This document shows, piece after piece, positions 3,261 to 20,276 of a DNA stretch of 22,188 nt; position 1 is the stretch's first letter, and every line of letters starts with the position of its first letter. A program made the position numbers and the translations under genes. This DNA is from a virus. The notes below the pieces were generated by a model, which was given only the letters and a program-made list of their open reading frames with translations, was not told where the DNA came from and made no database searches. The DNA lies in IMG/VR virus record IMGVR_UViG_3300047667_000404, positions 1 to 22,188 of that record; one strand, given 5' to 3'.

Positions 3261-3515
3261 TTATATTTTATCATTACTGATAATGGAATACGTACTAATT
3301 CTTAGCTTTCTATACCCCTCCTCAGTTCGGAGCTCCTCCCCTATGCTTATGCTTTGCCCTTTATCGTTTTCAATCTCAACGAAGATAGGGTTTTGCGCGT
3401 CTGTGTCATCAATAATTATATTTATAGACATGTCTGCCTCCTCATGGTTATGTAATTTATCAATTACAGCGTTAAAACTTTCTTTTATTGCTATCATTTC
3501 ATCAAATATGTTCAT
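3261..3515 (-). CDS. Hypothetical protein, 84 aa
   Basis: Not recognised. An N-terminal helix (MNIFDEMIAIKESFNAV) precedes a probable beta-strand region with strongly acidic and hydrophobic alternation (MSINIIIDDTDAQNPIFVEI), and a C-terminus resembling TEEGYRKLRISTYSII. No membrane or metal-binding motif. The ATG lies five bases after GGGGAAGG and the gene overlaps the end of the sigma-like gene by 14 bases, so the two are probably translated in a coupled fashion. Confidence 0.75.
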   Translation of the reverse strand: MNIFDEMIAIKESFNAVIDKLHNHEEADMSINIIIDDTDAQNPIFVEIENDKGQSISIGEELRTEEGYRKLRISTYSIISNDKI

Positions 3516-3978
3516 TAGACCTTCCCCTTGTTGCCAACCCTTTCTTATTTCGAATGTAATCAGGACTAAGCCCTACCACTTCCCCTATTTCTCTAAATGA
3601 ATATCCTAATGCTTCCATCTGTTGCACCTCTGTTAGTTTGTAAAACTCTCTCTCAGCATATATCTTATCTTCATAAGCTTCCTCCACTGGTGCATCATGC
3701 CACACTTCCATGTGCTCTGCACTGTTAGTTAGTTTTATATTAGCCTTAATTGGCCTACACACTTCCTGCATCACTAGGAGTTTAATATACACACTCTTAG
3801 AAGCTAGCTCTGGATTATACTTAGGGATGTTCTTTAAGACAGTGAGGACAACATTCTGTACTATGTCTTCGTAATCAGGAGTCCAAGCTTCACATATATT
3901 CCATTTCTTTAATAGATAATGTATGAGCTTCATGTTATCCCCTAGCCATTCTGGTGTTAACGGCTCGTTGTCTTTCAT
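3502..3978 (-). CDS. Sigma-70-family-like small protein (putative transcription switch factor), 158 aa
   Basis: The layout resembles a compact two-domain sigma factor. Residues about 17-80 look like region 2: a helix LIHYLLKKWN, then DYEDIVQNVVLTVLKNIPKY (compare the D-L-V-Q-E-x-F-L core and F-D-P segment of sigma region 2), then a helix with VYIKLLVMQEVCRPIK. After an acidic linker, residues about 115-148 (LTEVQQMEALGYSFREIG, EVVGLSPDYIRNKK) read as a region-4-type helix-turn-helix of the form Leu-x-Glu-x-Gln, Gly-x-S-x-x-E-I, G-x-S-x-x-x-I. Length matches ECF-like minimal sigma factors. It overlaps both neighbours (ATGA upstream, 14 bases downstream). Alternative: a terminase-small-like or other HTH regulator that merely resembles sigma. 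Binding to host RNA polymerase is inference. Confidence 0.6.
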   Translation of the reverse strand: MKDNEPLTPEWLGDNMKLIHYLLKKWNICEAWTPDYEDIVQNVVLTVLKNIPKYNPELASKSVYIKLLVMQEVCRPIKANIKLTNSAEHMEVWHDAPVEEAYEDKIYAEREFYKLTEVQQMEALGYSFREIGEVVGLSPDYIRNKKGLATRGRSNEHI

Positions 3979-4417: not shown

Positions 4418-4565
4418 CGTCATGCTCCTGTTGTTTAAGTCGAAGAAGCTCAACAACAGCTTCTTCTTCACCATATGGCCCTGCTACACAGTAACAAGCA
4501 TCATTATCAAAGACAAACCACTCACCATCCCCTGTACACCCTTCTTCTACAAAATATTTACTCAT
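4410..4565 (-). CDS. Hypothetical acidic protein, 51 aa
   Basis: A short gene found by direct reading. The product begins MSKYFVEEGCTGDGEWFVFD and ends in a charged helix (LLRLKQQEHDDE). Strands with W-F-V-F-D, then Cys pairs and the phrase GPYGEEEAVVELL, resemble small phage proteins in which a beta hairpin precedes one helix. It overlaps the primase-helicase stop by eight bases and the next gene by eight. Strongly acidic overall. Function unknown. Confidence 0.65.
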   Translation of the reverse strand: MSKYFVEEGCTGDGEWFVFDNDACYCVAGPYGEEEAVVELLRLKQQEHDDE

Positions 4566-6222
4566 AGTTGTCTTCCTGTTCTTCTAGTTTACCTTTAGAT
4601 GGCTTCCACGTTAACGGGATTGCCTCTGCTACACCGAACTCTCTGTCTTCTAGTATGTGTAACACACGTTGAGAGTTTAGATATTCCTTGTCCTCACCTT
4701 CTGTAATCTTCCAAACTTGTAGCCCTATAGCTGCATTACATGTTTGAGCCATAGCACTACTACCTGCAAAATCATCACTTGTTGGTATACGTCCTTGACT
4801 CCATTGCTTATCCCCTTTAGGTGCCTTGTTGTAGTGACAGAATACATGAGCTGTAAATCCGTAGTTAGCTGCATCCTCTGCTAGTTCCCTTGTCATGCTG
4901 ATTAGGAAGTCATTACGCTCACTACTATTCATCTTAGTAGTGAAGTTAGTAATGGGGTCTATGTATACAGTTTTAATTCCCTGTAGCAGCACTTCTTCCT
5001 TAATAAGCTGTCTAGTAGAAGTCCAATCAGGTGTTTGCCACTTGTCAAAGAGATGCACCTTCTCACCTATAATACTCTCTGCCTTGTCTACATCATCAGG
5101 ATTAACCACAATGTTAGGGTCGTGGAACACTTTATTAACCAAACTACCTGCTAGTCTACGTAGTGTGGCTTTAGGTGAAGACTCAGGACTCACAATCAAC
5201 ACCTTCTGATTGTGTTCCATTATGTTCCATCCTGCTAAGTGATTAACAAGTGTTGTCTTCCCTCCCTTTGGTGGTGCGCCCCAATATATAACCTCACCCT
5301 CTCTCTGTCCTCTTGTGAGCTTAGTAAGTGTAGCCCAAGGATAGCTTTTACCAAATGCAAGGGGTACTTTAAGCTCTGCAAACATACCCTTATCAGGTAC
5401 AACAACACCAACAGACAAAGGAACACCAGCATTGTAACAACTGCTAACTAATTCAGCTTCCTTACCTTGCTTCACCATGTCATTAGCATCTTTCTCAGAA
5501 TATTTAGCTATTTTCACAGTATAATCTTCTGGAAATAGAGCGATAATAGCCTTGACAGCTACATCCCCTGCCTTCTCATCATAATCAGGACAGAATACAA
5601 CTTGCTTCCACTTGTCTGTTATGTCTTTCAAGACAGGTTGTAACGTTTTAATTACACTATCAGCACCTTGGGACAGAGAAATAACAGCAACTTTCTGCTT
5701 CTTCTGCCTCACCCATGCTGTGAACATGGCAATTGCGTCTTCTTCCCCCTCTGTTACGTATAAACTATACCCACCTACTTCTAATGCTTCCTTCCATCCA
5801 AATGGCTCCGCATTCTTAACACTACCTACAGTGTAAAACTTCTTCGGGTCGTGCAAACGTACCTTGTATCCAGTGGTATCATGTTTAATTCTACGTGGGT
5901 AATACGTTTCTGTTAATGTCTTTCCGTCCCTTGTACTAACGCCATGCTTAACACCAAAGTGTTCGTAAGCCATCCTCTTTAGACCTCTCTCAGGATGATT
6001 AAACGTACCAAGGTCACCTACCCACTTAATACACTTAGGCTCTTGTGGGATGTACTCAACGTCACTATCAGGCAAAGATGAGAGAGCTTGTGTGTTGTAG
6101 TATGTTTTACATGTAGGTTGGAAACAATATCCCGTCCTTACACCATCTTCTTCAAACACTTGTAAGCTCTTCTCATCTCCACATGTGGGACAAGCTATGC
6201 GAGCTACGCAACTTCCACTCAT
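4558..6222 (-). CDS. Bifunctional DNA primase-helicase (T7 gp4-like), 554 aa
   Basis: This protein makes RNA primers and unwinds DNA at the phage fork. Residues 11-38 form a zinc-binding domain (C11, C14, C33, C38, spacing CX2C-X18-CX4C). A TOPRIM catalytic core follows: VTEGEEDAIAMF with E158 (T7 E157 equivalent), SLSQGADS near 183-189, and CPDYDEKAGD with D213 and D215. The RecA-like helicase has Walker A GAPPKGGKTT (315-324, K322), Walker B VYIDP (419-423), and the downstream HYNKAPKGD and SDDFAGSSAMAQ segments (463-492) that match the H3/H4 region of DnaB/gp4 helicases. Length is close to T7 gp4 (566). The start overlaps the upstream stop as TAATG. It would act with the DNA polymerase encoded downstream in the same operon. 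Confidence 0.96.
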   Translation of the reverse strand: MSGSCVARIACPTCGDEKSLQVFEEDGVRTGYCFQPTCKTYYNTQALSSLPDSDVEYIPQEPKCIKWVGDLGTFNHPERGLKRMAYEHFGVKHGVSTRDGKTLTETYYPRRIKHDTTGYKVRLHDPKKFYTVGSVKNAEPFGWKEALEVGGYSLYVTEGEEDAIAMFTAWVRQKKQKVAVISLSQGADSVIKTLQPVLKDITDKWKQVVFCPDYDEKAGDVAVKAIIALFPEDYTVKIAKYSEKDANDMVKQGKEAELVSSCYNAGVPLSVGVVVPDKGMFAELKVPLAFGKSYPWATLTKLTRGQREGEVIYWGAPPKGGKTTLVNHLAGWNIMEHNQKVLIVSPESSPKATLRRLAGSLVNKVFHDPNIVVNPDDVDKAESIIGEKVHLFDKWQTPDWTSTRQLIKEEVLLQGIKTVYIDPITNFTTKMNSSERNDFLISMTRELAEDAANYGFTAHVFCHYNKAPKGDKQWSQGRIPTSDDFAGSSAMAQTCNAAIGLQVWKITEGEDKEYLNSQRVLHILEDREFGVAEAIPLTWKPSKGKLEEQEDNYE

Positions 6223-7005: not shown

Positions 7006-7186
7006 TAATAGCCTCCCATTGTTCAAGGAATTCCACTTGGTCAGGTTTATACACAGACATTGTATGCACACCCTTTAAGTTCAAATGTACAATCAATCCC
7101 ACAACTGCAACATCATCAAAGAATGCAAAATGATTGGGTGTTATTGTGTACAAGTACTCCGTATTACCTAGTTTGGATATCTTCAT
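6992..7186 (-). CDS. Hypothetical protein, 64 aa
   Basis: Not recognised. I place the start at 7186 (MKISKLGNTEYLYTITPNHF) because that ATG overlaps the ligase stop codon as TAATG; an in-frame ATG 15 bases upstream lies inside the ligase gene. The protein is predicted mostly beta (YLYTI, FAFFDDVAVVGLIVHL) with a C-terminal helix (QVEFLEQWEAINEL). No signal peptide. Confidence 0.7.
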   Translation of the reverse strand: MKISKLGNTEYLYTITPNHFAFFDDVAVVGLIVHLNLKGVHTMSVYKPDQVEFLEQWEAINELS

Positions 7187-7716
7187 TACGCCTCCTTCCA
7201 TTTACCTTCTGAGAATTTAAACGTGTACTTCGTCATACACTGCGTAGTGTGAGAGAAAACAACAATACCTTCAGGCTCATATATGGCCTCTGCATCCTCT
7301 TTCAAGGTGAGCATTATATCTTCCACCATATTCTCGTAGTAAGCACCATGATACAGCACAGGAACAACGGCACAGATATTAGGGAGGCTAGGGTCTTGCA
7401 TCCATCTATAAGTATTAAACAAAAAGAATGCCTTCTCCTCAAGGTTGTGTGGGTTCTTCTGTATACCGAGTCCAGCCCATTCCCCATAGTGGTATCCATC
7501 TCCAAGCTTTGCAAGCTCCACATCGTTGCGACTTACCCAACCAGCGAAGCCATAGTTATCTTGCTCTGGTGTAATAAGCCTTTTACGGCTCTGTACCCCT
7601 ACTATCTTGCCATCTTCAATGATGATACAGGCATTTGTACCATCCATCTTCTCTGTCACTGTTACTAAGTCCTTGCCACCTCTAGGTATTTTAGGCCACT
7701 CTTTAAATTGTACCAT
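7186..7716 (-). CDS. Minimal RNA-ligase-like nucleotidyltransferase, 176 aa
   Basis: The covalent nucleotidyltransferase motifs are in order: motif I EKMDGTN with the adenylation Lys23, SRKR at 43-46 (Ia region), motif III GEWAG (78-82), motif IIIa FFLFNTY (97-103), motif IV EPEGIVV (147-153) and motif V TKYTFKF (K163, K167). These match the RNA_ligase (Rnl2-like) family and would allow ATP-dependent sealing of nicked RNA or hybrid substrates. There is no C-terminal OB or other accessory domain, so it is a catalytic core only, far shorter than T7 DNA ligase (359 aa). The start at 7716 overlaps the preceding stop (TAATG) with GGAGAG seven bases upstream; upstream in-frame ATGs would overlap the nuclease gene. 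It occupies the position of T7 gene 1.3 relative to primase. Confidence 0.88.
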   Translation of the reverse strand: MVQFKEWPKIPRGGKDLVTVTEKMDGTNACIIIEDGKIVGVQSRKRLITPEQDNYGFAGWVSRNDVELAKLGDGYHYGEWAGLGIQKNPHNLEEKAFFLFNTYRWMQDPSLPNICAVVPVLYHGAYYENMVEDIMLTLKEDAEAIYEPEGIVVFSHTTQCMTKYTFKFSEGKWKEA

Positions 7717-8030
7717 TAGAAATCTCTCCATTTTGTTAATCCCTTGATACATGTTTTCATATCAAGATTGTTAATAGGATTTTCGATAAGTGATTTTAGG
7801 TGGTTAAAGCTTGTATGACAAGCCACAACATTTCCCTTCACATATCCTTTCGTGTTGTCTACCCTGTCTACTGTACGTGTTGTATTAGATAATGGCAAGC
7901 CTGTAAAATAACATTTCTTAGCCAAACCTATGTTTCTCAGTGTAACGATACTCATACTGAACTCTATCCCTCTCTGTTTTGCGGATGCTGCTTTCCTTAT
8001 GTACCACTTCGCTATGCTTATATCACTCAT
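7716..8030 (-). CDS. HNH-type endonuclease-like protein, 104 aa
   Basis: The central signature is C40-Y-F-T-G, D55-R-V-D58, G62-Y, N67 and C71, N76 with H77 and K79, matching the C-x-x-T-G / D-R-x-D / G-Y-x-x-x-N / C-x-x-x-N-x-x-K arrangement of small phage HNH/His-Me nucleases. The N-terminal helix is basic (YIRKAASAKQRG), typical of DNA contact. It could be a homing-type nuclease, a packaging or host-degrading enzyme, or a junction resolvase replacing T7 gp3; the sequence does not decide. AGGAG precedes the ATG at 8030, and it is the first gene after the AT-rich gap. Confidence 0.7.
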   Translation of the reverse strand: MSDISIAKWYIRKAASAKQRGIEFSMSIVTLRNIGLAKKCYFTGLPLSNTTRTVDRVDNTKGYVKGNVVACHTSFNHLKSLIENPINNLDMKTCIKGLTKWRDF

Positions 8031-9827: not shown

Positions 9828-10164
9828 TACATAGCTCCTCTAGTTCTTCTAGTGTATCAATGCCATTCATTAGCTCTTCACCTTGAATATAGACATACAT
9901 ATTCACTACGGATTCAGCGTTGTCTAGCTTTGTAGTCACTTCCCCAAATTGGTCTTGCTCGTACTCCACTATGTCGTGGATTGCTTTAAATGCATGGACA
10001 TCATGCTTGATGAGCCACTGCTCACAATTGTAATAGCCTACTAAATAATAGTCCTCATTGAAGGAATGAAAGTGCCATTCGTCTTGGTTATCAGGTGTTA
10101 ACACACCGTCTTCGATACGGCTAAGGATGTGTGCTTTTAGTTCTGCTTTGATTGAATTGTTCAT
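9820..10164 (-). CDS. Conserved-looking hypothetical protein, 114 aa
   Basis: First gene of the second leftward block. The order is a basic helix (IKAELKAHILSRIEDG), HFHSFNEDYYLVGYYNCEQW, then a helix region ending SVVNMYVYIQGEELMNG. The E-D-Y-Y-L-V-G-Y-Y and V-Y-I-x-G-E-E-L phrases resemble a hypothetical protein family in other tailed phages, but I cannot name a function. It follows a 5' leader carrying a 14-base-pair hairpin about 30 bases upstream. Confidence 0.75.
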   Translation of the reverse strand: MNNSIKAELKAHILSRIEDGVLTPDNQDEWHFHSFNEDYYLVGYYNCEQWLIKHDVHAFKAIHDIVEYEQDQFGEVTTKLDNAESVVNMYVYIQGEELMNGIDTLEELEELCND

Positions 10165-10196
10165 GTTGTTACCTTTTGTGTTAGTCAGTTGATACG

Positions 10197-10225
10197 TTTA
10201 AGAATACTCAATGAATACTCTTAAA
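10197..10225 (-). promoter_or_regulatory. Long RNA hairpin in leftward leader
   Basis: The minus-strand transcript can fold UUUAAGAGUAUUCA against UGAGUAUUCUUAAA with one base between arms: 14 consecutive pairs including two G-U wobbles. On the opposite strand the two wobbles would be A-C mismatches, so the structure favours leftward RNA. Candidate RNase III processing site, stabiliser or attenuator. Confidence 0.55.
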
Positions 10226-10463
10226 GGTATACACCGACGTCATTGCGTGATGTATAACTATTACCGAATTGTTAAAGAACATGTTAGTTAGGTTTCTCTC
10301 TGCCCTTCCAACACCAATAAGACTACAGCATACAATTATTAATGCAACTATAAATATCAATATAAATACAATTAAATGATAAGGTGTTGAAACATAACGA
10401 GTTATACATGCAAATAAACATTAGACATAGACAAAACATGATACCAATCACTTTATTCAAGGC

Positions 10464-10492
10464 AATAAAAAGCCCTAATTAAAGGGCTTATT
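10464..10492 (-). terminator. Rho-independent terminator after first early gene
   Basis: In the leftward RNA, AATAAGCCC pairs with GGGCTT/UUAUU across a short A/U loop, and the 3' arm runs into a U-rich tract (UUUUUAUU). It lies 37 bases after the stop of the 83-residue early gene. In the opposite orientation the trailing sequence is also AT-rich, so it may act bidirectionally. Confidence 0.75.
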
Positions 10493-10528
10493 GTTATGTG
10501 ATTAATTAACCTTAGTATTATCAAGTTA

Positions 10529-10780
10529 CTAGCTAAAGGGTTCCAGCTTAACTTTTATATCCCTCCACATACGCTTTATATCCTCCACTTTGTATTCATT
10601 AGGGTCATATGCAAAATCTATTTCACATACATCACAATCTTCATCAATAAATTCACCCTGCGCCCATTCAACATACCCATACATTTCTTTACTTAACAGC
10701 TCTAATGCCCATTCCATTTCTTCTTTCTCCTCGACTTTACCCGTGAAACCTGCCTGTTGATTAACTACTTGTAATCTCAT
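10529..10780 (-). CDS. Acidic early protein, 83 aa
   Basis: First gene downstream of the tandem leftward promoters, isolated by its own terminator, so likely expressed immediately on infection. About 21 Asp/Glu against 10 Lys/Arg make it strongly acidic (VEEKEEMEWALELL, FIDEDCDVCEIDFAYD). Two Cys lie close together (DCDVCE). No homologous family is recognised. By position it parallels the first early genes of T7-like phages, which often encode host-takeover or anti-restriction DNA-mimic proteins; that role is inference. An ATG start is preceded by weakly purine-rich sequence (AACGGGTAT). Confidence 0.72.
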   Translation of the reverse strand: MRLQVVNQQAGFTGKVEEKEEMEWALELLSKEMYGYVEWAQGEFIDEDCDVCEIDFAYDPNEYKVEDIKRMWRDIKVKLEPFS

Positions 10781-10810
10781 AATATACCCGTTAGTTGTTT
10801 AAGTCATTAC

Positions 10811-10839
10811 AACATAATACCACATCATACATAAGTCAA
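10811..10839 (-). promoter_or_regulatory. Sigma70-type early promoter, leftward
   Basis: Minus strand TTGACT at 10839-10834, 17-base spacer, TATGTT at 10816-10811. It is about 30 bases upstream of the first early gene. -35 matches 5/6 and -10 matches 4/6 of consensus. Confidence 0.6.
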
Positions 10840-10884
10840 GTACTAATTAAAATAAACATACAAATAAATAAACATACCCATACA

Positions 10885-10915
10885 TATATAAGTACATGTA
10901 TGAAGAGCTAGTCAA
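10885..10915 (-). promoter_or_regulatory. Second sigma70-type early promoter, leftward
   Basis: Minus strand TTGACT at 10915-10910 with TTATAT or TATATA 18-19 bases downstream (to 10885). Same -35 hexamer as the neighbouring promoter, 76 bases away. Confidence 0.5.
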
Positions 10916-10951
10916 AGGACAGCTAGCGATAGCTATAGGCTTGTTAGCTTG

Positions 10952-10979
10952 CTAATAAGACTAACTATATACAAATCAA
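10952..10979 (-). promoter_or_regulatory. Third possible early promoter, leftward
   Basis: Minus strand TTGATT at 10979-10974, 16-base spacer, TATTAG at 10957-10952. Weaker than the other two but in register with them. Confidence 0.4.
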
Positions 10980-11055
10980 CCCTTTAGCCATTGTGTTCGT
11001 GTTAGAACGCTAGGCTACACTCGTCCCTCATTCCACCCGTAATTCATGAAGAAGA

Positions 11056-11070
11056 CCCCCACAGGGGGGG
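11056..11070. repeat. GC-rich hairpin, C5-ACA-G7
   Basis: CCCCC, loop ACA, GGGGGGG in otherwise AT-rich DNA. In the leftward direction the G-run is followed by TCTTCTTC, giving a terminator-like outline; it would block rightward-arm antisense transcripts before the early promoters. Alternatives: a protein-binding or DNA-processing site. Confidence 0.45.
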
Positions 11071-11226
11071 AATTGCTTTGTTGAGGGTGTATATGCATAG
11101 CACTCTACAAATTTCTACAAAAAAGAATTCTTTAAGAGTTATATACACTCAGTGGTTGCTGGATAAATCACAGCTCCCTTGCTCATCAGGTCTAAAGACC
11201 ATATTCGCATAGTAGCAGTAGAAGCT

Positions 11227-11256
11227 TTGATGCAGTAAAGTGTTCTTTATTAGAAT
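11227..11256 (+). promoter_or_regulatory. Possible rightward promoter
   Basis: TTGATG at 11227-11232, 18-base spacer, TAGAAT at 11251-11256 (5/6 for -10). It points toward the holin and structural genes about 390 bases downstream. Confidence 0.3.
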
Positions 11257-11295
11257 GTTTGTCTGCTATTAGTGTATGCTAATAGTATAAGTAGA

Positions 11296-11324
11296 TTGCA
11301 TTCTTGTTTCTTAATCTGTATATT
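11296..11324 (+). promoter_or_regulatory. Possible rightward promoter
   Basis: TTGCAT at 11296-11301, 17-base spacer, TATATT at 11319-11324. Good -10 and spacing but weak -35; could be read by an alternative or modified sigma. Confidence 0.3.
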
Positions 11325-11400
11325 AGATGTATGGTTTGCTTTAATGCAGATAAACAATTTAAAGTGTACTCCTAGACAATAGAGACATAAGAACAGTCCA

Positions 11401-11429
11401 TTGGCAGATACAGTACACAACTTTTTAAA
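11401..11429 (+). promoter_or_regulatory. Possible rightward promoter
   Basis: TTGGCA (5/6) at 11401-11406, 17-base spacer, TTTAAA at 11424-11429. The strongest -35 on the rightward side, with a weak -10. Confidence 0.3.
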
Positions 11430-11582
11430 CCTTATGTAAGTAAGGCAGTACAGAATATGTTGGTTACAACCCCTTGCGGAGTTATAAAGAGGACAGGCGT
11501 CTTTACTACGGTTTAGACTTAATAGTGTATCCACCTGTTTAAATTAAATATGTGATAACCCAACCAACATTTAAATTAATAC

Positions 11583-11626
11583 GCCTACCAAGCCTCTTAG
11601 CAATGCTCAAATTGTGTAGGCTTTTT
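11583..11626 (+). terminator. Terminator or attenuator-like leader before late genes
   Basis: AAGCCT (11590-11595) can pair with AGGCTT (11618-11623) followed by UUUU, an intrinsic-terminator outline with a 22-base loop. GCCTAC (11583-11588) can instead pair with GTAGGC (11616-11621). The 3' arms overlap, so the two stems exclude each other. It ends six bases before the AAAGGAG ribosome site of the holin gene. Confidence 0.4.
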
Positions 11627-11642
11627 ATCCTAAAGGAGATGT

Positions 11643-12035
11643 ATGAGTTGGTTTGCAAGTTTGTTTAGTAGCGCAGCAGCAGAGCCTATTACAGCTATTG
11701 GTAATGTTGTTGACTCCTTATTTACAAGTGATGATGAAAGACTTGATAAGGCTATTATTAAACAACGACTAGCTCAACAACCTGCCTTAGTACAAGCAGA
11801 GATTGGTAAGGTACAAGCTTCACATAGAAGTACATTTGTAGCAGGAGCACGTCCTTTCCTTATGTGGGTGTGTGGTGTTGGCTTCTTAATGGCTTTTGTT
11901 GTCAATCCTATTATGCAATGGTTTGGACTTGCATTAGTAATCCTTCCTGTAGAAGTAATGATGGAACTCACATTAGCAATGCTTGGCTTATCTGGCCTTC
12001 GCACAATAGAAAAACTTAAAGGCGTAAGCAAGTAA
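11643..12035 (+). CDS. Holin of the GTA-type three-TM family, 130 aa
   Basis: The sequence fits the GTA_holin_3TM family: a soluble N-terminal part with DERLDKAIIKQRLAQQPALVQ (31-51), then HRSTFVAGARPFLMWVCGVGF (61-81), three close hydrophobic segments (about 72-88, 91-104, 106-119) and the conserved end LGLSGLRTIEKLKGV (114-128). Such proteins are thought to open the inner membrane for release of endolysin. AAAGGAG lies just upstream of the ATG, and it is the first rightward gene, overlapping the first spike gene as TAATG. No endolysin gene is visible in the window; it must lie elsewhere. Confidence 0.85.
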   Translation: MSWFASLFSSAAAEPITAIGNVVDSLFTSDDERLDKAIIKQRLAQQPALVQAEIGKVQASHRSTFVAGARPFLMWVCGVGFLMAFVVNPIMQWFGLALVILPVEVMMELTLAMLGLSGLRTIEKLKGVSK

Positions 12036-13918
12036 TGGCAAACTACACAAGAAATACATTAACAGGGGATTTAGCTCCTGTAAATGCAGAGCTAGAAAAA
12101 GTACAACAGTCTATAGCAGATAAGCTAGATAGAAACCCTTCTACGGGGCAAGCCAATCAACTTGATAATACATTAGATGCCAACAACAATAGAATTATAA
12201 ACCTCCCAGCACCTTCTCATCCTAATGACCCTGCTAGATTAAAAGATTTAACAGCAAGTACTAACAGTTCTATTCTTCCTCCTCAAGAATCACAGACAAA
12301 TAAATATCTAAGAACAGATGGTAGTGCAGCGTATTGGGATGTAATTGTAAAAGCTACTGTTGGTTTGAGTAATGTAGATAATACAAGTGATGTTAATAAA
12401 CCAATCAGTACTCTCACTCAAAATGCTCTGGATTTAAAAACTAATGTAGCTATTACAACAACAAGCTTAATAAGTAGTACTGTTGTATACGAACCAGCTA
12501 CAGTTATTAATACTAGTGGGTTTGCTACAAGCGGAGACACATTAGGTGCAGGTTGGAAACAAAATGGCGTAACAAGTCAACCAGTAAGCCAAAGCCCTGT
12601 ACAGCTTAACGGGTTTACGTTAAATGATGCAAACGGAAATCAATGGTCTTGGGTAGGTGGTGCAGTTGCAAGCAACATGACTATACTAATACCCTCTATG
12701 TTCTCAACTCTTCAAGCTGCTATTGATTTTATTCATCCAAAGGCGAATATATCCACAGGAATATTAGTTAACCTGCAAATAGAATCATCCCATACAGAAG
12801 CAACAGGTCTGCTAATTACTGGCGGGGACTACAGCCACTTTGTTATTACATCGGTTGATGCCACTGTGCCCGTTAGTATTCAAAACAACGGTAATCAAGG
12901 ATTTGACGGAAAGGGTTCACACTTCTTTTTTGAAAACTGTACAACGCCAATATTTTCTTGTTTGTTTGATGCACAGACAAGTGGAGGGAGGTATGCAGCA
13001 GGAATTACTGTTAGAAATGGGGTATTAAGAGTAGACGCGGGAGCGGGTTTAATTAATGTAGGTATGCCACAACTAACAGCATCCCCCGCAAATACCTTGG
13101 AAACACAGTTTGGTTATAATTGTTTAGTATGGAATAACAGCCGCGCTTTGCTGAATGGTGCTGTTTTTACTGGTGCAGCACAAAGAAACCTATGGGTAAC
13201 ACGTAGCAGTTTTGTCACAGCAGCGACAGCAATCTTGTCAGGCTCAAGAGCAGATGGAAGCGTAACAGGTAATGATGGTAATATTTATTGTACTCGTGGC
13301 AGTCACATTAACGCAGAGTATGCAGACCTTAAAAACGCTGCAAATAGGGCAATTACTTGTACACGTTCCTTTGTAAACGCAGAAGAAGCAGACACAAGCG
13401 GCACAACAAACGAAGAATTAGTTGTTGGGCGTGGTGGAGTTATAAATGCTTTTGGTACTAAGACATCAAACGCAACAGGAAGCTCATTTCCATACACTCC
13501 TTCAGTTTTAGATTTAGGTGGTAACTCAGAATTTAACACCCCTAACGGCTCTGGTATAATTTATTCAGAGCAAGCTAGCCAATGGCCTTCAAGATTGTTT
13601 TCTACGCAGACATTAGACGTTAGACAGCCAACAGGCGGTTTAGAAGTTAGCACACGAACAAACATAACATTAGTATTTGTTGACAGTAGTGAGCTTGCGG
13701 GAACAATAACTTTTGCAGATACGTTTTTAGACACAAACTATTCAGCAGTTTCGGCAATGACAGTTGCACCACCATCACCAAGACGTGCAGCAGGTGTAAT
13801 GAGATTTAGAAATAAAACTACAACATCAATAACTGCGTCATTGTTTGCGGAAAGTGGTACATTTGTTTCAGGTGACACTTGCCAAATAACTGCACAGTTA
13901 CTTGGACGCTGGAAGTAG
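12035..13918 (+). CDS. Tail fibre/tail spike protein 1, 627 aa
   Basis: Receptor-binding virion protein. Residues 1-75 form an adaptor seen in several podophage fibres (IADKLDRNPST, LDANNNRIINLPAPSHPNDP, ARLKDL). A fibre repeat of the type L-P-x-Q...K-Y-L-x-T-D-G-x-A-x-W spans 81-101, followed by VGLSNVDNTSDVNKPIS (109-125), a segment common in fibre shafts. The remainder (about 210-550) has the Gly/Asn/Ala-rich short strands of a right-handed beta-helix, consistent with a trimeric spike, possibly carbohydrate-degrading. No catalytic residues can be assigned. C-terminal 60-70 residues (DTFLDTNYSAVSAMTVAP) look like a distinct knob domain. Confidence 0.85.
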   Translation: MANYTRNTLTGDLAPVNAELEKVQQSIADKLDRNPSTGQANQLDNTLDANNNRIINLPAPSHPNDPARLKDLTASTNSSILPPQESQTNKYLRTDGSAAYWDVIVKATVGLSNVDNTSDVNKPISTLTQNALDLKTNVAITTTSLISSTVVYEPATVINTSGFATSGDTLGAGWKQNGVTSQPVSQSPVQLNGFTLNDANGNQWSWVGGAVASNMTILIPSMFSTLQAAIDFIHPKANISTGILVNLQIESSHTEATGLLITGGDYSHFVITSVDATVPVSIQNNGNQGFDGKGSHFFFENCTTPIFSCLFDAQTSGGRYAAGITVRNGVLRVDAGAGLINVGMPQLTASPANTLETQFGYNCLVWNNSRALLNGAVFTGAAQRNLWVTRSSFVTAATAILSGSRADGSVTGNDGNIYCTRGSHINAEYADLKNAANRAITCTRSFVNAEEADTSGTTNEELVVGRGGVINAFGTKTSNATGSSFPYTPSVLDLGGNSEFNTPNGSGIIYSEQASQWPSRLFSTQTLDVRQPTGGLEVSTRTNITLVFVDSSELAGTITFADTFLDTNYSAVSAMTVAPPSPRRAAGVMRFRNKTTTSITASLFAESGTFVSGDTCQITAQLLGRWK

Positions 13919-13970: not shown

Positions 13971-16085
13971 ATGGCAAGATATACAAAGACAGGAACTCCT
14001 AATACAATAGGAGAATTGGATTCACAATTGGATTTGATATCAACAGCTATAGCAGATACTCTTTCTCGTAAAGGAGATACTCCTAATCAGATGGAAGCAA
14101 GTATTGATATGAATAGCAATTCTATTCTTAATCTACCTGCTCCTGCCTCTGCAAATTCTCCTGTAAGACTTGCGGATTTAAACGCAGCAGAAATTGGAGC
14201 ACTTGCTGGCTTAAACCTACAAAAAGAATTTAGCTACACAATTGGTGCAGGTCAGACATTAGTGTCAGTATCTCTATCTGCATTTAACTCTTCTTATTTT
14301 ATCTCCACACCTAGCACTCTTGGTGGAAAGCTTGTTCTTAATACAGACTACGTAATTGTTAGTGGCAGTCAAATACAATTTCTTAATACATTCCCTGCAA
14401 ACAGCATCCTAACAGAAGTAGGAATTGCTACAGACCAGACAGTTGTAGACAGAGAAGCTACAGCCATTACTAAATACTTCAAAGCAGAAGACTTTGGATT
14501 TACTCATGTAAACTCAGCAGCAGCTAACCTCATAGCCCTTACAGCCGCTTACACAGCTTGTGATGAAGGTGGTGTTGTTACTATCAATCAAAAAGAAAAC
14601 TTTTCTTGTAGTAGACTTAATGTTACAGGTGGTAAAGAGTTTGAAATAGAAATTAATGGTGTAGGTAAGTGGATTGTAGCAACAGAACGAGCTATAACCA
14701 TCGTACAGCCCTTTCAAAATATTCTCTCTGTTAGTGCTATAGACCTTGTTGTTCTTACTGTCAATGGCTCTACAGTTGATGTTATTAGGCTTACAGTAAG
14801 TGATTCTAGTACATACGCTAAAGGGGATGCAGTAAAAGTATTTAATGATGAGCTTGATGTTTTTGACGGTAGAAGTAACAGACGTAAGGGTGAGTTTGCA
14901 GAAGTAATAGATGTAGCAAGTGGCTTTATCTATCTTACTTGCAGACTTGAAGATGTTTATAATACAGCTAACAACGTTCGTGTAGCCCGTATGAGTAAGA
15001 AACGTTTTTCTTTTAAAGGAAACTTTGTAAGCAACATTACTAATACGGAAGATGTTATAAACTTAGAAGGAATATACAAGCCTACTATTACATTAGACGT
15101 TGAGAATCATGGCAAGATTGTAGTTAATTTAAAAAGTAGTTATTTAGGTAATTACTATCTATCAGGTACAGGCTATACAGATAACACAGGAAGTCTTGGT
15201 TATTTAGCTAATGATGCAGCAGGTTATCACAATGTATATCATGCACCTTTTGGTAAGTTCTTTCGTCACGTAGTTACATCTAATGCAACAGGTGTTACAA
15301 GTGGAGTAGATAGCCCTGAAGACTATGGCCCTACTCGTGGTATGACTATACGAGATGGTATTTCTATTGGCGCATTAGGTGCTCCTTGGGATGACCATGA
15401 TGGAGCGAGACGCACACAGTTTATTAATTGTAAGAGTCTTGACCCCCTACGTAGTTCTGCAACCTACCCTTGTACTTTCCAGCTAAGAGGAAGAGATACT
15501 AAGATAATTGGAGGGGAAACTGTTGGGCCTACACCTGTTATAAACAATGATTATGCTCATATTAGATTTGGGGATACAGCATCAGGACAAATTCAGATAA
15601 ATGACCCTACGTGTGTAACTGCTGTTATTGGTTTAACTTTTATTGTACCTCCTTCTTCCAATTTGAGAGGTGAGTTATCTGTAAGTATCAATGGTGGTAA
15701 TGTACGTCTAGTCCAACCACAGAGTTTAGTTGAAATACAGAACATGAATATGCAAATGACAGGCACAACGCTTGAAGCTACAGGTGCTAATGTTAATTTT
15801 ACACAATTGTTTGATTTAACAAACGCAAAGTTATATTTAAGTAATGTAACGGTAAAGGTTACCGGCACAGGTGGTAATGCAAGAGCAGTAAGACTTAATA
15901 CAAATGGTAAGGTGATGGGACAAGTATACTTAGATGTGAGTGGTGTGACGTACACATCAGGTGTCCTTTCTGAAAGCACAGGTAATTCTAGTTTCTTAAC
16001 GCTAGTTAATGCGGGAGGTTCTGCTGGTAGTTTAGTTAATGGCGGTTCTTTTGATTTTGTTAGCAACACTATTGTAACGTTGTAA
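13971..16085 (+). CDS. Tail spike protein 2, 704 aa
   Basis: A second receptor-binding candidate. Residues 1-72 are paralogous to spike 1: IADTLSRKGDTPNQ, IDMNSNSILNLPAPASANSP, VRLADL. Residues 85-160 (FSYTIGAGQTLVSVSL, LNTDYVIVSGSQIQF) resemble the beta domain that follows the tail-attachment region in T7-type fibres. From about 169 (YFKAEDFGFTHVNSAAANL, then AAYTACDEGGVVTIN) the sequence has the entry pattern of a right-handed beta-helix tailspike. The gene begins 52 bases after spike 1 with an AGGA site; nothing else is seen in the gap. Specific enzyme activity cannot be read from the sequence. Confidence 0.85.
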   Translation: MARYTKTGTPNTIGELDSQLDLISTAIADTLSRKGDTPNQMEASIDMNSNSILNLPAPASANSPVRLADLNAAEIGALAGLNLQKEFSYTIGAGQTLVSVSLSAFNSSYFISTPSTLGGKLVLNTDYVIVSGSQIQFLNTFPANSILTEVGIATDQTVVDREATAITKYFKAEDFGFTHVNSAAANLIALTAAYTACDEGGVVTINQKENFSCSRLNVTGGKEFEIEINGVGKWIVATERAITIVQPFQNILSVSAIDLVVLTVNGSTVDVIRLTVSDSSTYAKGDAVKVFNDELDVFDGRSNRRKGEFAEVIDVASGFIYLTCRLEDVYNTANNVRVARMSKKRFSFKGNFVSNITNTEDVINLEGIYKPTITLDVENHGKIVVNLKSSYLGNYYLSGTGYTDNTGSLGYLANDAAGYHNVYHAPFGKFFRHVVTSNATGVTSGVDSPEDYGPTRGMTIRDGISIGALGAPWDDHDGARRTQFINCKSLDPLRSSATYPCTFQLRGRDTKIIGGETVGPTPVINNDYAHIRFGDTASGQIQINDPTCVTAVIGLTFIVPPSSNLRGELSVSINGGNVRLVQPQSLVEIQNMNMQMTGTTLEATGANVNFTQLFDLTNAKLYLSNVTVKVTGTGGNARAVRLNTNGKVMGQVYLDVSGVTYTSGVLSESTGNSSFLTLVNAGGSAGSLVNGGSFDFVSNTIVTL

Positions 16086-16580: not shown

Positions 16581-16906
16581 GTGCTGAAGTGGGAGGACTT
16601 GCTTTACTCCTCAAGTACGTATGGTTGCCTACTATTGGTTTATTAGGTTGGTTTACTAAAGGATATTTAAACAAGTTGGATGCAAGACAGTCTCTCTCTG
16701 AACAGAAACTAGGAGAGCTGGAATTGAAACTTAATAAACACTATTATGATAAAGAGGAAATACAGCAACACATAGTACTTCCTTTACAGACAAGCATTAC
16801 AGAGACAAGAGAAGAGTTAAAAGCCACTAGCAAGATGATTGCTGAGATACATAGTGACATGAGACTCCTTACATTTAAGATACTAGGCAAGGACAGTAGT
16901 GAATGA
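16577..16906 (+). CDS. One-TM coiled-coil protein, possible spanin or lysis accessory, 109 aa
   Basis: N-terminal hydrophobic segment LALLLKYVWLPTIGLLGWF (about 8-26) is followed by basic residues and a long helical region with coiled-coil character (SLSEQKLGELELKLNKHY, TSITETREELKATSKM). The T7 i-spanin (gp18.5, Rz-like) also lies between small and large terminase genes and has one N-terminal TM plus a coiled coil, so this is a candidate. Against that: basic residues follow the TM, which by the positive-inside rule would place the coil in the cytoplasm, and no embedded lipoprotein partner is seen. Overlaps both neighbours as ATGA. Confidence 0.6.
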   Translation: MSAEVGGLALLLKYVWLPTIGLLGWFTKGYLNKLDARQSLSEQKLGELELKLNKHYYDKEEIQQHIVLPLQTSITETREELKATSKMIAEIHSDMRLLTFKILGKDSSE

Positions 16907-18516
16907 GTATTGATAACATAAGAGAAGAGTGTGAAGACAGCTTATACACATACGCTCAAATTATGTTTCCTAATCGGTACTTTGGTGACTTGCACAGAGA
17001 GATGTTTATGTTTTTTGAGCAGTCTCTTAATGGAGCGCTTACAGGCGGTGAAGGTGATAATGCAGCAGCCTTAGTACCTCGTGACCATCAGAAGAGTTTT
17101 TGTATTGCTGTAGCATGTAGTTGGGCTATTACTAAGTTTCCTTGGTTTACTGTTACATATGTTTCTTCTAACCCTACGTTGTCACAAAGACAGCTTACTG
17201 TTATTAAGAATATATTTAAGAGTGAAGCGCATAGAGAGCTATGGCCTGAGATGTTGAATTATGAAATACATCCTAGAACTAAAGACTACGAACATAAGCC
17301 TACAGGCACTTGGACTATTAGTGAAATAGCTATAGACCACCCTGAACGCCCTAAGAGTGAGAAAGACCCTACAGTAGCCGCAACAAGTGCAAAAAGTACA
17401 AACACTGGTGCTCACTACAAGATGTGTATATTTGATGACTTAGTAACTAACGAAAACTACCGAAGTGCAGCAGAGCGAGAAGACATTAAAGAGGTATATC
17501 AGTCTTATGCTTCAATTGCTACAACAGGTAGTATTAAGTGGATGGTAGGGACTAGGTATGGAGATAATGACCTCTACGGAGACTTGAAAGAAAAAGAATA
17601 CGAAGTGTTTGATGATGAAGGTAATTGCACAGAGACAAGACCCCTTTGGAAGTGGTTTGAACGCACAGTAGAAGACAGTAAGCATAAAGATGGGAGTGGT
17701 ACGTTTGTATGGCCTAGACAGCAAATGCCTGATGGCAACTGGTATGGCTTTAACAGAACAGAATTAAGTAAGAAACGTAGTGAAGCATTTAACTTAACAC
17801 TCTATTACTGCCAGTACTACAACGACCCTAATGCAGCAGCCGTAGACAAGATTACTAACGATTGCTTTATGTATATGCAGCCTAAGATGTTAGAACAACG
17901 ACAAGGTAAGTGGTGGTATGGTAATAAAGAACTTAAAGTGTTTTGTGGTATGGATTTGGCTTTTAGTGAAGGCAGCGGAGCTAAGAAAGTTAAACGAGAT
18001 TACACAGCCATTGCAGTTATTGCATGGGATGCAGATGGGTATCTATACGTACTCGACTTACAACGCTTCCAAACAGCAGACGCTAGAGTTTATTACGATA
18101 AAGTAATACAGATGCACCAATACTGGAACTTTAGAGATGTAACTGTAGAGACTAACGCTGGTGGTAATGTAATAGCTAACTTTGTACAGGATGAGATACG
18201 TAAAGCTGGTGAGACTCTTGTAGTTAAGCACCAAACTAAGAACCAAAGGGAAGGAAGCAAGGAGGAGCGTAATGCTCAACTGTTTGAACCTTTGTATCGA
18301 GGTAAGAGCGTCTATCATACTAAAGGTGGATACACCAGACTCTTAGAAGAAGAATTGAGACTAAACAAGCCCCCACATGATGATTTAAAAGATGCCTTAT
18401 GGATAGCTGTTACTAACAGTACACGAATGAGTAAGCCTAAGTTTGCAACTAACAGAAACAAGAACGTAGTAAGTGCAGAGAGTAGGTTTTTAAATAGAGG
18501 AAGAAAGAGAGCTTAA
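16903..18516 (+). CDS. Terminase large subunit, 537 aa
   Basis: Packaging ATPase and nuclease. The ATPase has a Walker A-like VPRDHQKSF (58-66, K64), Walker B MCIFDDL (174-180, D178/D179) and coupling segment VGTRYGDND (215-223). The RNase H-like nuclease shows GMDLAFS (D351), RDYTAIAV (D366), VTVETNAGG (E416) and PHDDLKDALW (D493/D494/D497). The Walker A lacks the classical GKS/T glycine, as is common for terminases of the T7-type and related phages. Length is normal (T7 gp19, 586). Starts by an ATGA overlap and ends in TAATG with the portal gene, so packaging motor and portal are co-expressed. Confidence 0.96.
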   Translation: MSIDNIREECEDSLYTYAQIMFPNRYFGDLHREMFMFFEQSLNGALTGGEGDNAAALVPRDHQKSFCIAVACSWAITKFPWFTVTYVSSNPTLSQRQLTVIKNIFKSEAHRELWPEMLNYEIHPRTKDYEHKPTGTWTISEIAIDHPERPKSEKDPTVAATSAKSTNTGAHYKMCIFDDLVTNENYRSAAEREDIKEVYQSYASIATTGSIKWMVGTRYGDNDLYGDLKEKEYEVFDDEGNCTETRPLWKWFERTVEDSKHKDGSGTFVWPRQQMPDGNWYGFNRTELSKKRSEAFNLTLYYCQYYNDPNAAAVDKITNDCFMYMQPKMLEQRQGKWWYGNKELKVFCGMDLAFSEGSGAKKVKRDYTAIAVIAWDADGYLYVLDLQRFQTADARVYYDKVIQMHQYWNFRDVTVETNAGGNVIANFVQDEIRKAGETLVVKHQTKNQREGSKEERNAQLFEPLYRGKSVYHTKGGYTRLLEEELRLNKPPHDDLKDALWIAVTNSTRMSKPKFATNRNKNVVSAESRFLNRGRKRA

Positions 18517-20276
18517 TGATTACACTCAATTACAGCAAAAAACCCAAATTAGCAAATGAGATTGCATTGTATAAGCACGAATGGAACAGTGTACGTACAA
18601 GTGCTTGTGATATGTGGGCAGAGATTGATAGTTACATACACGCTACAGATACTTCTATGCTAGAAGGTGGTGAGTTCTTTGACCACAAGACGTTTATTCC
18701 TATTATATCTGAGATACATGAAGACCTAATAGCTATTATATTCTCCACTGTATTTCCACATGAGGATTGGCTTAGTTGGAAAGGTTATGATGCTAAGGCT
18801 ATTGCTACAGAGAAACGTAGAAAGCTTATTTCCATGATTAAACAAGTACATGCACTTAACGGATTTAGTACTACTTTCCGTAAAGTTATTGATGACTTAG
18901 TGCGGTATGGCAACTGCTTTGTAAAGGTGGATTTTGTTAATGAAACAGAAATGGAAGAAGGGAAAATTGTTACTGGTTTCCTTGGCCCTAAACCTGTTCG
19001 TATTAGCCCTTATGATATTGTTTTTAATCCAACTTTTTCAGAATTTAAGAAGACACCGAAAATCATCACAAGCCTCCTCCCAACAGGAGAGTTTAAAGAG
19101 TTCATAGATAACTTAGGCGATAAGAGTGAGATAGATGATGCAAAGCTTAGTCTCTTACTTAATCGTAGAGCAGGAGCTAGTACAGACAACTCAGACAGAT
19201 ATAAAGATGCACAATACCTGCCAGCAGGGTTTGGTACTATTAAAGAATACTACACAAGTGGCATGATTGAGTTGTTGTGGTTCTATGGGGACATATACGA
19301 TGAAGAAACACAAAAAGTACACAAGGGTAGATGCGTTATAGTTGTTGATGGCAACACTGTTGTATATGACGGATTTGAACCTAAGACTAAAATATTTAAA
19401 GGTAGCTGGAAGCCTCGTCCTGATAGTTTGTGGAGTCAAGGCCCGTTAGACAATCTAATTGGTATTAACTACATGATTAACCACAGAGAGAACTCTAAGA
19501 ACGATTCGATTGATAAGTTTGCCAATCCAGATAGAGCTTATGTAGGTGATGTAGAAGAGATATATGACGAAGTAACAGGTCAAACTAAGTACATTATGCC
19601 TGAAGGTGGAAGTGTACAAGACATTGTTCCTGATGCAACTGTATTGACGTATGACAACCAAATAACAATGCACACGGAGATGGCACGTAGAGCAGCACGT
19701 ATTCCTCAACAGTTAACAGGCTTTAAGACTTCAGGAGAAAAGACAGCTTTCGAAGTACAGAACTTAAATGATGGTGCTTTTAGAGGCTTTATTAATAAGG
19801 CTATGCAGTTTGAAGAAGATGTTATTGAGCCTTGTGTTACAGCAGAGTTACGGGTGGCAAGAGAAAACTTTAGTACGGTTATTAGTGTCTTAGAAGAAGA
19901 TGAAGAAGGTATTATTAGTGTATTAGAAGTGACAGAGGAAGACCTTAGCAGTAATGGTAAGCTTATACCCTTTGGAGCAAGACGCTTTGCACGTAACCTA
20001 CAACAGCTTGCAGCATTACAAAACTTACAACAAAGTGGTATGTATCAGATATTTGGTAAGCACTTCAACACATACGATTTAGCTCGTGTATGGGAGACTT
20101 TGAATGGCTTTGAGAACTATCAAGTAATTAAGAAGTTTGCTGCTATAGATGAAGCTATGGAAGAGGAGGAAGCAACAATGCTTGCACAGCAAGAGATGGA
20201 GCAGAATATGTCACAACCAAGTCCAATAGAAATGCAGATGGATGCTGAGATGGAACAGGAGATGGGTAATGAGTGA
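18516..20276 (+). CDS. Portal (head-tail connector) protein, 586 aa
   Basis: Assigned as the dodecameric portal through which DNA enters the head. Supporting features: position immediately after large terminase and before scaffold and capsid, length, an N-terminal wing region (ALYKHEWNSVRTSACDMWAE, LIAIIFSTVFPHEDWLSW), a central part with PDSLWSQGPLDNLIGINYMI (matching portal stem/crown helices) and RIPQQLTGFKTSGEKTAFEV near 395-415, and an acidic, Met/Gln-rich C-terminus (EEEEATMLAQQEMEQNM) after the barrel region. Such M/Q/E-rich ends are typical in podophage portals. Confidence 0.9.
   Translation: MITLNYSKKPKLANEIALYKHEWNSVRTSACDMWAEIDSYIHATDTSMLEGGEFFDHKTFIPIISEIHEDLIAIIFSTVFPHEDWLSWKGYDAKAIATEKRRKLISMIKQVHALNGFSTTFRKVIDDLVRYGNCFVKVDFVNETEMEEGKIVTGFLGPKPVRISPYDIVFNPTFSEFKKTPKIITSLLPTGEFKEFIDNLGDKSEIDDAKLSLLLNRRAGASTDNSDRYKDAQYLPAGFGTIKEYYTSGMIELLWFYGDIYDEETQKVHKGRCVIVVDGNTVVYDGFEPKTKIFKGSWKPRPDSLWSQGPLDNLIGINYMINHRENSKNDSIDKFANPDRAYVGDVEEIYDEVTGQTKYIMPEGGSVQDIVPDATVLTYDNQITMHTEMARRAARIPQQLTGFKTSGEKTAFEVQNLNDGAFRGFINKAMQFEEDVIEPCVTAELRVARENFSTVISVLEEDEEGIISVLEVTEEDLSSNGKLIPFGARRFARNLQQLAALQNLQQSGMYQIFGKHFNTYDLARVWETLNGFENYQVIKKFAAIDEAMEEEEATMLAQQEMEQNMSQPSPIEMQMDAEMEQEMGNE

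Follow-up and report, generated by a model that had tools for sequence, protein, structure and literature searches.

A divergent sigma70-family protein encoded between the helicase and DNA polymerase genes of a marine phage

Our analysis of a viral record of 22,188 bases (the whole stretch is called the window below), which comes from a marine virus of bacteria, showed that the 158-amino-acid product of an open reading frame at 3502-3978 on the minus strand is a divergent, ECF-like protein of the sigma70 family, the assignment of its region-4-like helix-turn-helix (HTH) being the weaker part. We consider it probable that this protein is a small phage sigma factor with regions 2 and 4, which takes the host core RNA polymerase to phage promoters, most likely those of the late operon. 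The initial annotation of this DNA had called the product sigma-like, and the 158 residues and the motifs quoted there were present, on the minus strand.

The open reading frame is a real gene, because its start and stop overlap both neighbour genes, its ATG is preceded by GGAGG, a good ribosome-binding site, the differences from the homologue in viral contig L001 are skewed to third codon positions (20/17/44), and dN/dS is low. The plus strand across 3502-3978 contains many stops. Homologues were found in two viral contigs with the same gene neighbourhood (L001, 77%; L002, 49%), and none was found in bacterial genome contigs. The dN/dS values against these two relatives were 0.13/0.58 = 0.22 (L001) and 0.43/1.39 = 0.31 (L002), so that the gene is under purifying selection with a ratio of about 0.2-0.3.

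Searches with profile libraries gave sigma-family matches from four independent sources, namely PHROGs, Pfam, NCBIfam and the PDB sequences. The profile PHROG_1740, 'RNA polymerase sigma factor', matched residues 35-145 (E = 8e-8), and all seven of the NCBIfam families listed as matches were sigma factors, including TIGR02937 (sigma70-ECF; 5.5e-6, below its curated cut-off). The region-2-like domain (residues 15-72; 3763-3936, minus strand) matched Pfam Sigma70_r2 at 2.1e-4, below the gathering score, and the same stretch was recovered in a genome scan. In the profile search against PDB sequences, sigma-H (3mzy) was matched at 2.4e-5; the entry 8vd6 ranked above it, but this match is a short repeated HTH-like stretch with five weak copies summed. 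The region-2 similarity is thus beyond chance, though it lies under the curated Pfam and NCBIfam cut-offs. PHROG_1740 also matches phiEco32 gp36 (1.9e-45), PA11 gp12 (3e-37) and CW02 gp21 (2e-28), and a profile-profile comparison with the factors of PA11, CW02 and T2S1 aligned both domains (probability 84%, E 8e-6). The best conserved part across all homologues was the EDIVQ stretch in the core-binding part of region 2. As for the region-4-like HTH proposed initially (about residues 115-145; 3544-3636, minus strand), it stands at the expected place, inside both the PHROG_1740 match and the profile comparison with PA11, CW02 and T2S1, but this part gave no significant match of its own to a region-4 family in Pfam. 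A defence-gene reading of the protein was rejected, as PADLOC returned no match.

The structure of the protein alone was predicted with AlphaFold from four sequences. The model is of middling confidence (mean pLDDT 63), with residues 1-70 at 72-85 by block, the region-4-like helices at 60-72 and a disordered linker. In Foldseek the best E was only 0.011, and the rows were sigma factors or transcription initiation complexes. A structural second look gave the same classes in 50 of 50 rows, over model residues 1-88, and in the best alignment to sigma region 2 this middling-confidence model reached Z 8.0 (3.2 A over 79 residues), where a Z near 8 alone is no proof for a helical fold. An earlier model, built from only three sequences, was not good enough (pLDDT 58), but even so its best rows in Foldseek were sigma factors. 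The sigma identity holds because fold, sequence and gene order agree.

The gene order is that of Zobellviridae. In the window, the genes for primase/helicase (4558-6222; PHROG_239, 1e-112), the sigma-like protein and family A DNA polymerase (3-1862, truncated at the window end; PHROG_17, 4e-77) follow each other on the minus strand, and the same order is found in RIO-1, PA11 and CW02. In RIO-1, the product of the slot gene, gp19, carries the GenBank annotation 'putative sigma factor ... there is a clear sigma factor in this position in related phages', and slot sigma factors are also annotated in PA11, CW02, T4S1, T2S1 and all-k141. HMM searches confirmed those of PA11, CW02, T2S1 and all-k141, did not confirm the slot proteins of RIO-1 and T4S1 as sigma factors, and gave weak support for the one of KZY1. 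No sigma gene was detectable in VpV262, ICP2 and SIO1; the gene is common in Zobellviridae but not universal, or it has sometimes diverged past recognition. The window protein shares with PA11 gp12, CW02 gp21, RIO-1 gp19, T2S1 ORF5 and T4S1 ORF25 the size class (theirs are 161-221 amino acids), the position between primase/helicase and DNA polymerase in a podovirus lineage without RNA polymerase and, with the clear cases, the combination of region 2 and a C-terminal HTH. However, it is only 15-18% identical to them in the alignment, and the W-F/L...N signature that follows their region 2.2 is replaced (Y64, M70). In another phage, PQ867850, two sigma-like proteins were observed, at 7216-7983 (minus), in the slot, with Pfam region 2 only, and at 18084-18557 (minus), elsewhere in the replication arm, with Pfam region 4 only.

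The terminase large subunit and portal (16903-20276, plus strand; PHROG_38 and PHROG_332) place the phage near Zobellviridae; the portals nearest to that of the window share 44-49% identity with it and belonged to Zobellviridae wherever the record was opened. As in RIO-1, the replication arm and the structural arm lie on opposite strands, and the rightward late operon begins with a holin gene (11643-12035, plus strand; PHROG_3427, 3e-31). The early arm also carries an RNA ligase (7186-7752, minus; PHROG_548, 3e-28) and a 104-aa HNH-type protein (7716-8030, minus) which matches two kinds of PHROG, one named Srd anti-sigma factor (2e-19) and one named decoy of host sigma70 (7e-11). These matches possibly reflect only a shared HNH-like domain, while a protein that binds sigma70 would be in keeping with a sigma switch. 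In the late arm, tail-fibre-like genes stand in succession (12035-13918 and 13971-16085, plus), and their products have similar N-terminal parts of about 70 residues and different C-terminal parts.

The absence of a T7-type RNA polymerase, on which the initial annotation had relied, holds for nearly the whole genome. A search with PF00940, which found the T7 control at 1e-110, gave no match in the window, in eleven named Zobellviridae or in two long relatives (G1, 40 kb; G2, 45 kb). The same phage is also represented by another contig of 36 kb (IMGVR 3300047666_000470), which agrees with the window at 99.97% identity over 12.8 kb; it covers nearly all of the remaining genome and was likewise free of PF00940 matches. 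When the genome is projected onto G2, only about 1.1 kb stays uncovered, which would be too little for a 2.6-kb polymerase gene. The further claim that the factor replaces the usual phage RNA polymerase switch is not supported in that form, because the polymerase is missing from all 11 Zobellviridae and the slot is occupied by a sigma factor in several of them; the arrangement is normal for the family and not a swap in this phage. The lack of a polymerase in Zobellviridae has already been compared to the sigma strategy of phiEco32 (PMC9960094).

Between the two arms lies a non-coding junction (10781-11642), which is conserved in G1 and G2 and corresponds to the genome-ends region of RIO-1, where terminal repeats are found. 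Within it, a block at 11344-11420 (plus strand) is invariant at 72 of 77 positions in the alignment of the three phages with this type of sigma protein (the window, G1 and G2), and G8 and L006, whose slot protein is a different one, gave no match to it. We regard this block as the candidate site at which a late promoter should be sought, and its conservation could also reflect genome ends, packaging or an RNA. The poor sigma70 promoters that had been ascribed to the late genes are not special to that side, as a scan of 10100-12100 found none convincing on either strand (4 found, against 8.0 +/- 3.6 in shuffles). The phiEco32 motif tAATGTAtA (13, shuffle mean 14.2) and the 7-11 motif GTAATG-16-ACTA (34 against 30.5) occurred at chance level. 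No late-promoter motif was found by motif discovery, for which the late operon offers too few gaps, and the block before the operon has no second copy for comparison.

Several hairpins occur in the junction, whose non-coding sequence shows strong conservation. Two of the hairpins keep their pairing across lineages (GTTC/GAAC, GTCC/GGAC, ATCC/GGAT; GGTCT/AGACC, TGACT/AGTCA), with double changes in 8 of 40 predicted pairs among five sequences (window 10970-11230; L041 2670-2970; L044 340-620; L046 9980-10320, minus; L006 3400-3750, minus), and they could be a structured RNA or a genome-end or packaging signal. The junction also contains a solitary abiF RNA at 11584-11621 (plus; Rfam RF03085, 44.3 bits with gathering at 37, E 2e-7) with no AbiF gene beside it. 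It sits in a segment of about 200 bases that G1 and G2 lack; TTTTT and then the first late gene come directly after it. AbiF RNAs neutralise the AbiF toxin (PMC12373285), and a cyanophage abiF RNA is on record (PMC9964418); the RNA of the window might serve the phage as a decoy antitoxin against an AbiF system of the host.

In a sister lineage (G8 and L003-L007), whose helicases are still 55-72% identical to that of the window, the slot just before DNA polymerase holds a conserved protein of 173-175 amino acids with a C-terminal HTH-like stretch and no clear family (L003 3655-4176; L006 10177-10698; L007 3750-4277; L008 12478-12999). Its alignment had no Pfam or PDB match, the hints from phrog_351 (0.015) and TIGR02937 (0.08) were slight, and the profile comparison with the sigma-like protein of the window failed (3% probability); we therefore refrain from naming it a sigma factor. 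Tentatively, and with some doubt, the slot may have diverged or been exchanged between the window, G1 and G2 on the one side and G8 and L003-L007 on the other until the slot proteins became mutually unrecognisable, with different blocks before the late operon, as a fast-evolving or swappable pair of phage sigma factor and promoter might do.

The phage sigma factors phiEco32 gp36 and 7-11 gp47 use the host core polymerase and drive middle and late promoters (PMC8948821). By analogy, the sigma-like gene would share the leftward transcription of the replication genes, for which the host RNA polymerase and a host sigma factor would presumably serve at first. Its product would then use region 2 to bind the host core enzyme and would guide it to phage promoters; the likeliest of these would lie in the 10.8-11.64 kb junction and start the rightward late operon. 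The late genes, named as targets initially, are thus plausible ones. The reading builds on the homology, the region-2 fold of the model, the conserved slot, the purifying selection and the absence of a phage polymerase, while core binding, promoter use and timing would follow phiEco32 and 7-11. As in phiEco32 and Salmonella phage 7-11, the factor occurs in a podovirus with opposite replication and structural arms and without its own RNA polymerase, and it falls in the same PHROG as phiEco32 gp36. In contrast, those phages belong to another family, the gene has another genome position, its function is proven there (PMC8948821) and proposed here, and at the place of region 4, which gp36 lacks, the window protein carries an HTH. 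Bacterial ECF sigma factors (SigW, RpoE, SigK and SigH) resemble the protein in size, two-domain plan and the region-2 fold of the model (Z 7-8), but are only 6-18% identical to it in structural alignments, and no anti-sigma partner was recognised in the window. Phages with the T7-type single-subunit polymerase switch have head/tail genes and replication proteins related to those of the window phage, which unlike them has no polymerase gene anywhere in the testable part of its genome. Counting against the reading are the sub-cutoff Pfam and NCBIfam scores, the missing region-4 domain match, the middling model, the fruitless search for a cognate promoter motif, and the fact that VpV262, ICP2 and SIO1 manage without a detectable sigma gene.

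The great distance of the sequence from the sigma family, with its low scores and weakly supported region 4, would also suit a sigma-derived regulator which no longer initiates transcription and either serves as a decoy, for core polymerase or for an anti-sigma factor, or binds DNA and has retained the HTH. We think this rather improbable, since the core-binding EDIVQ part is the best conserved across all homologues and the slot of the relatives holds clear sigma factors. A true sigma factor might instead serve middle or replication genes or the leftward arm, leaving the late operon to host sigma70 or antitermination, as the activity of the phiEco32 factor at middle as well as late promoters and the failure to identify a late promoter in the window would allow; this is quite unlikely, because the factor can only appear once the replication arm has been transcribed, the late operon lacks a convincing sigma70 promoter and a conserved block lies directly ahead of it. 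That this is an HTH protein from outside the sigma family, whose likeness to region 2 arose by chance, is barely credible, for only the missed curated cut-offs speak for it, and independent libraries concur while the gene order matches that of annotated sigma factors.

The protein of the window is probably a new, divergent example of a known phage sigma strategy, which is already annotated in relatives and ordinary for the family. It extends the pattern of Zobellviridae without RNA polymerase, with a sigma factor beside the replication genes, to a further marine lineage, and the compact set of divergent factors with their matching junctions offers material on the joint change of phage sigma factors and promoters.
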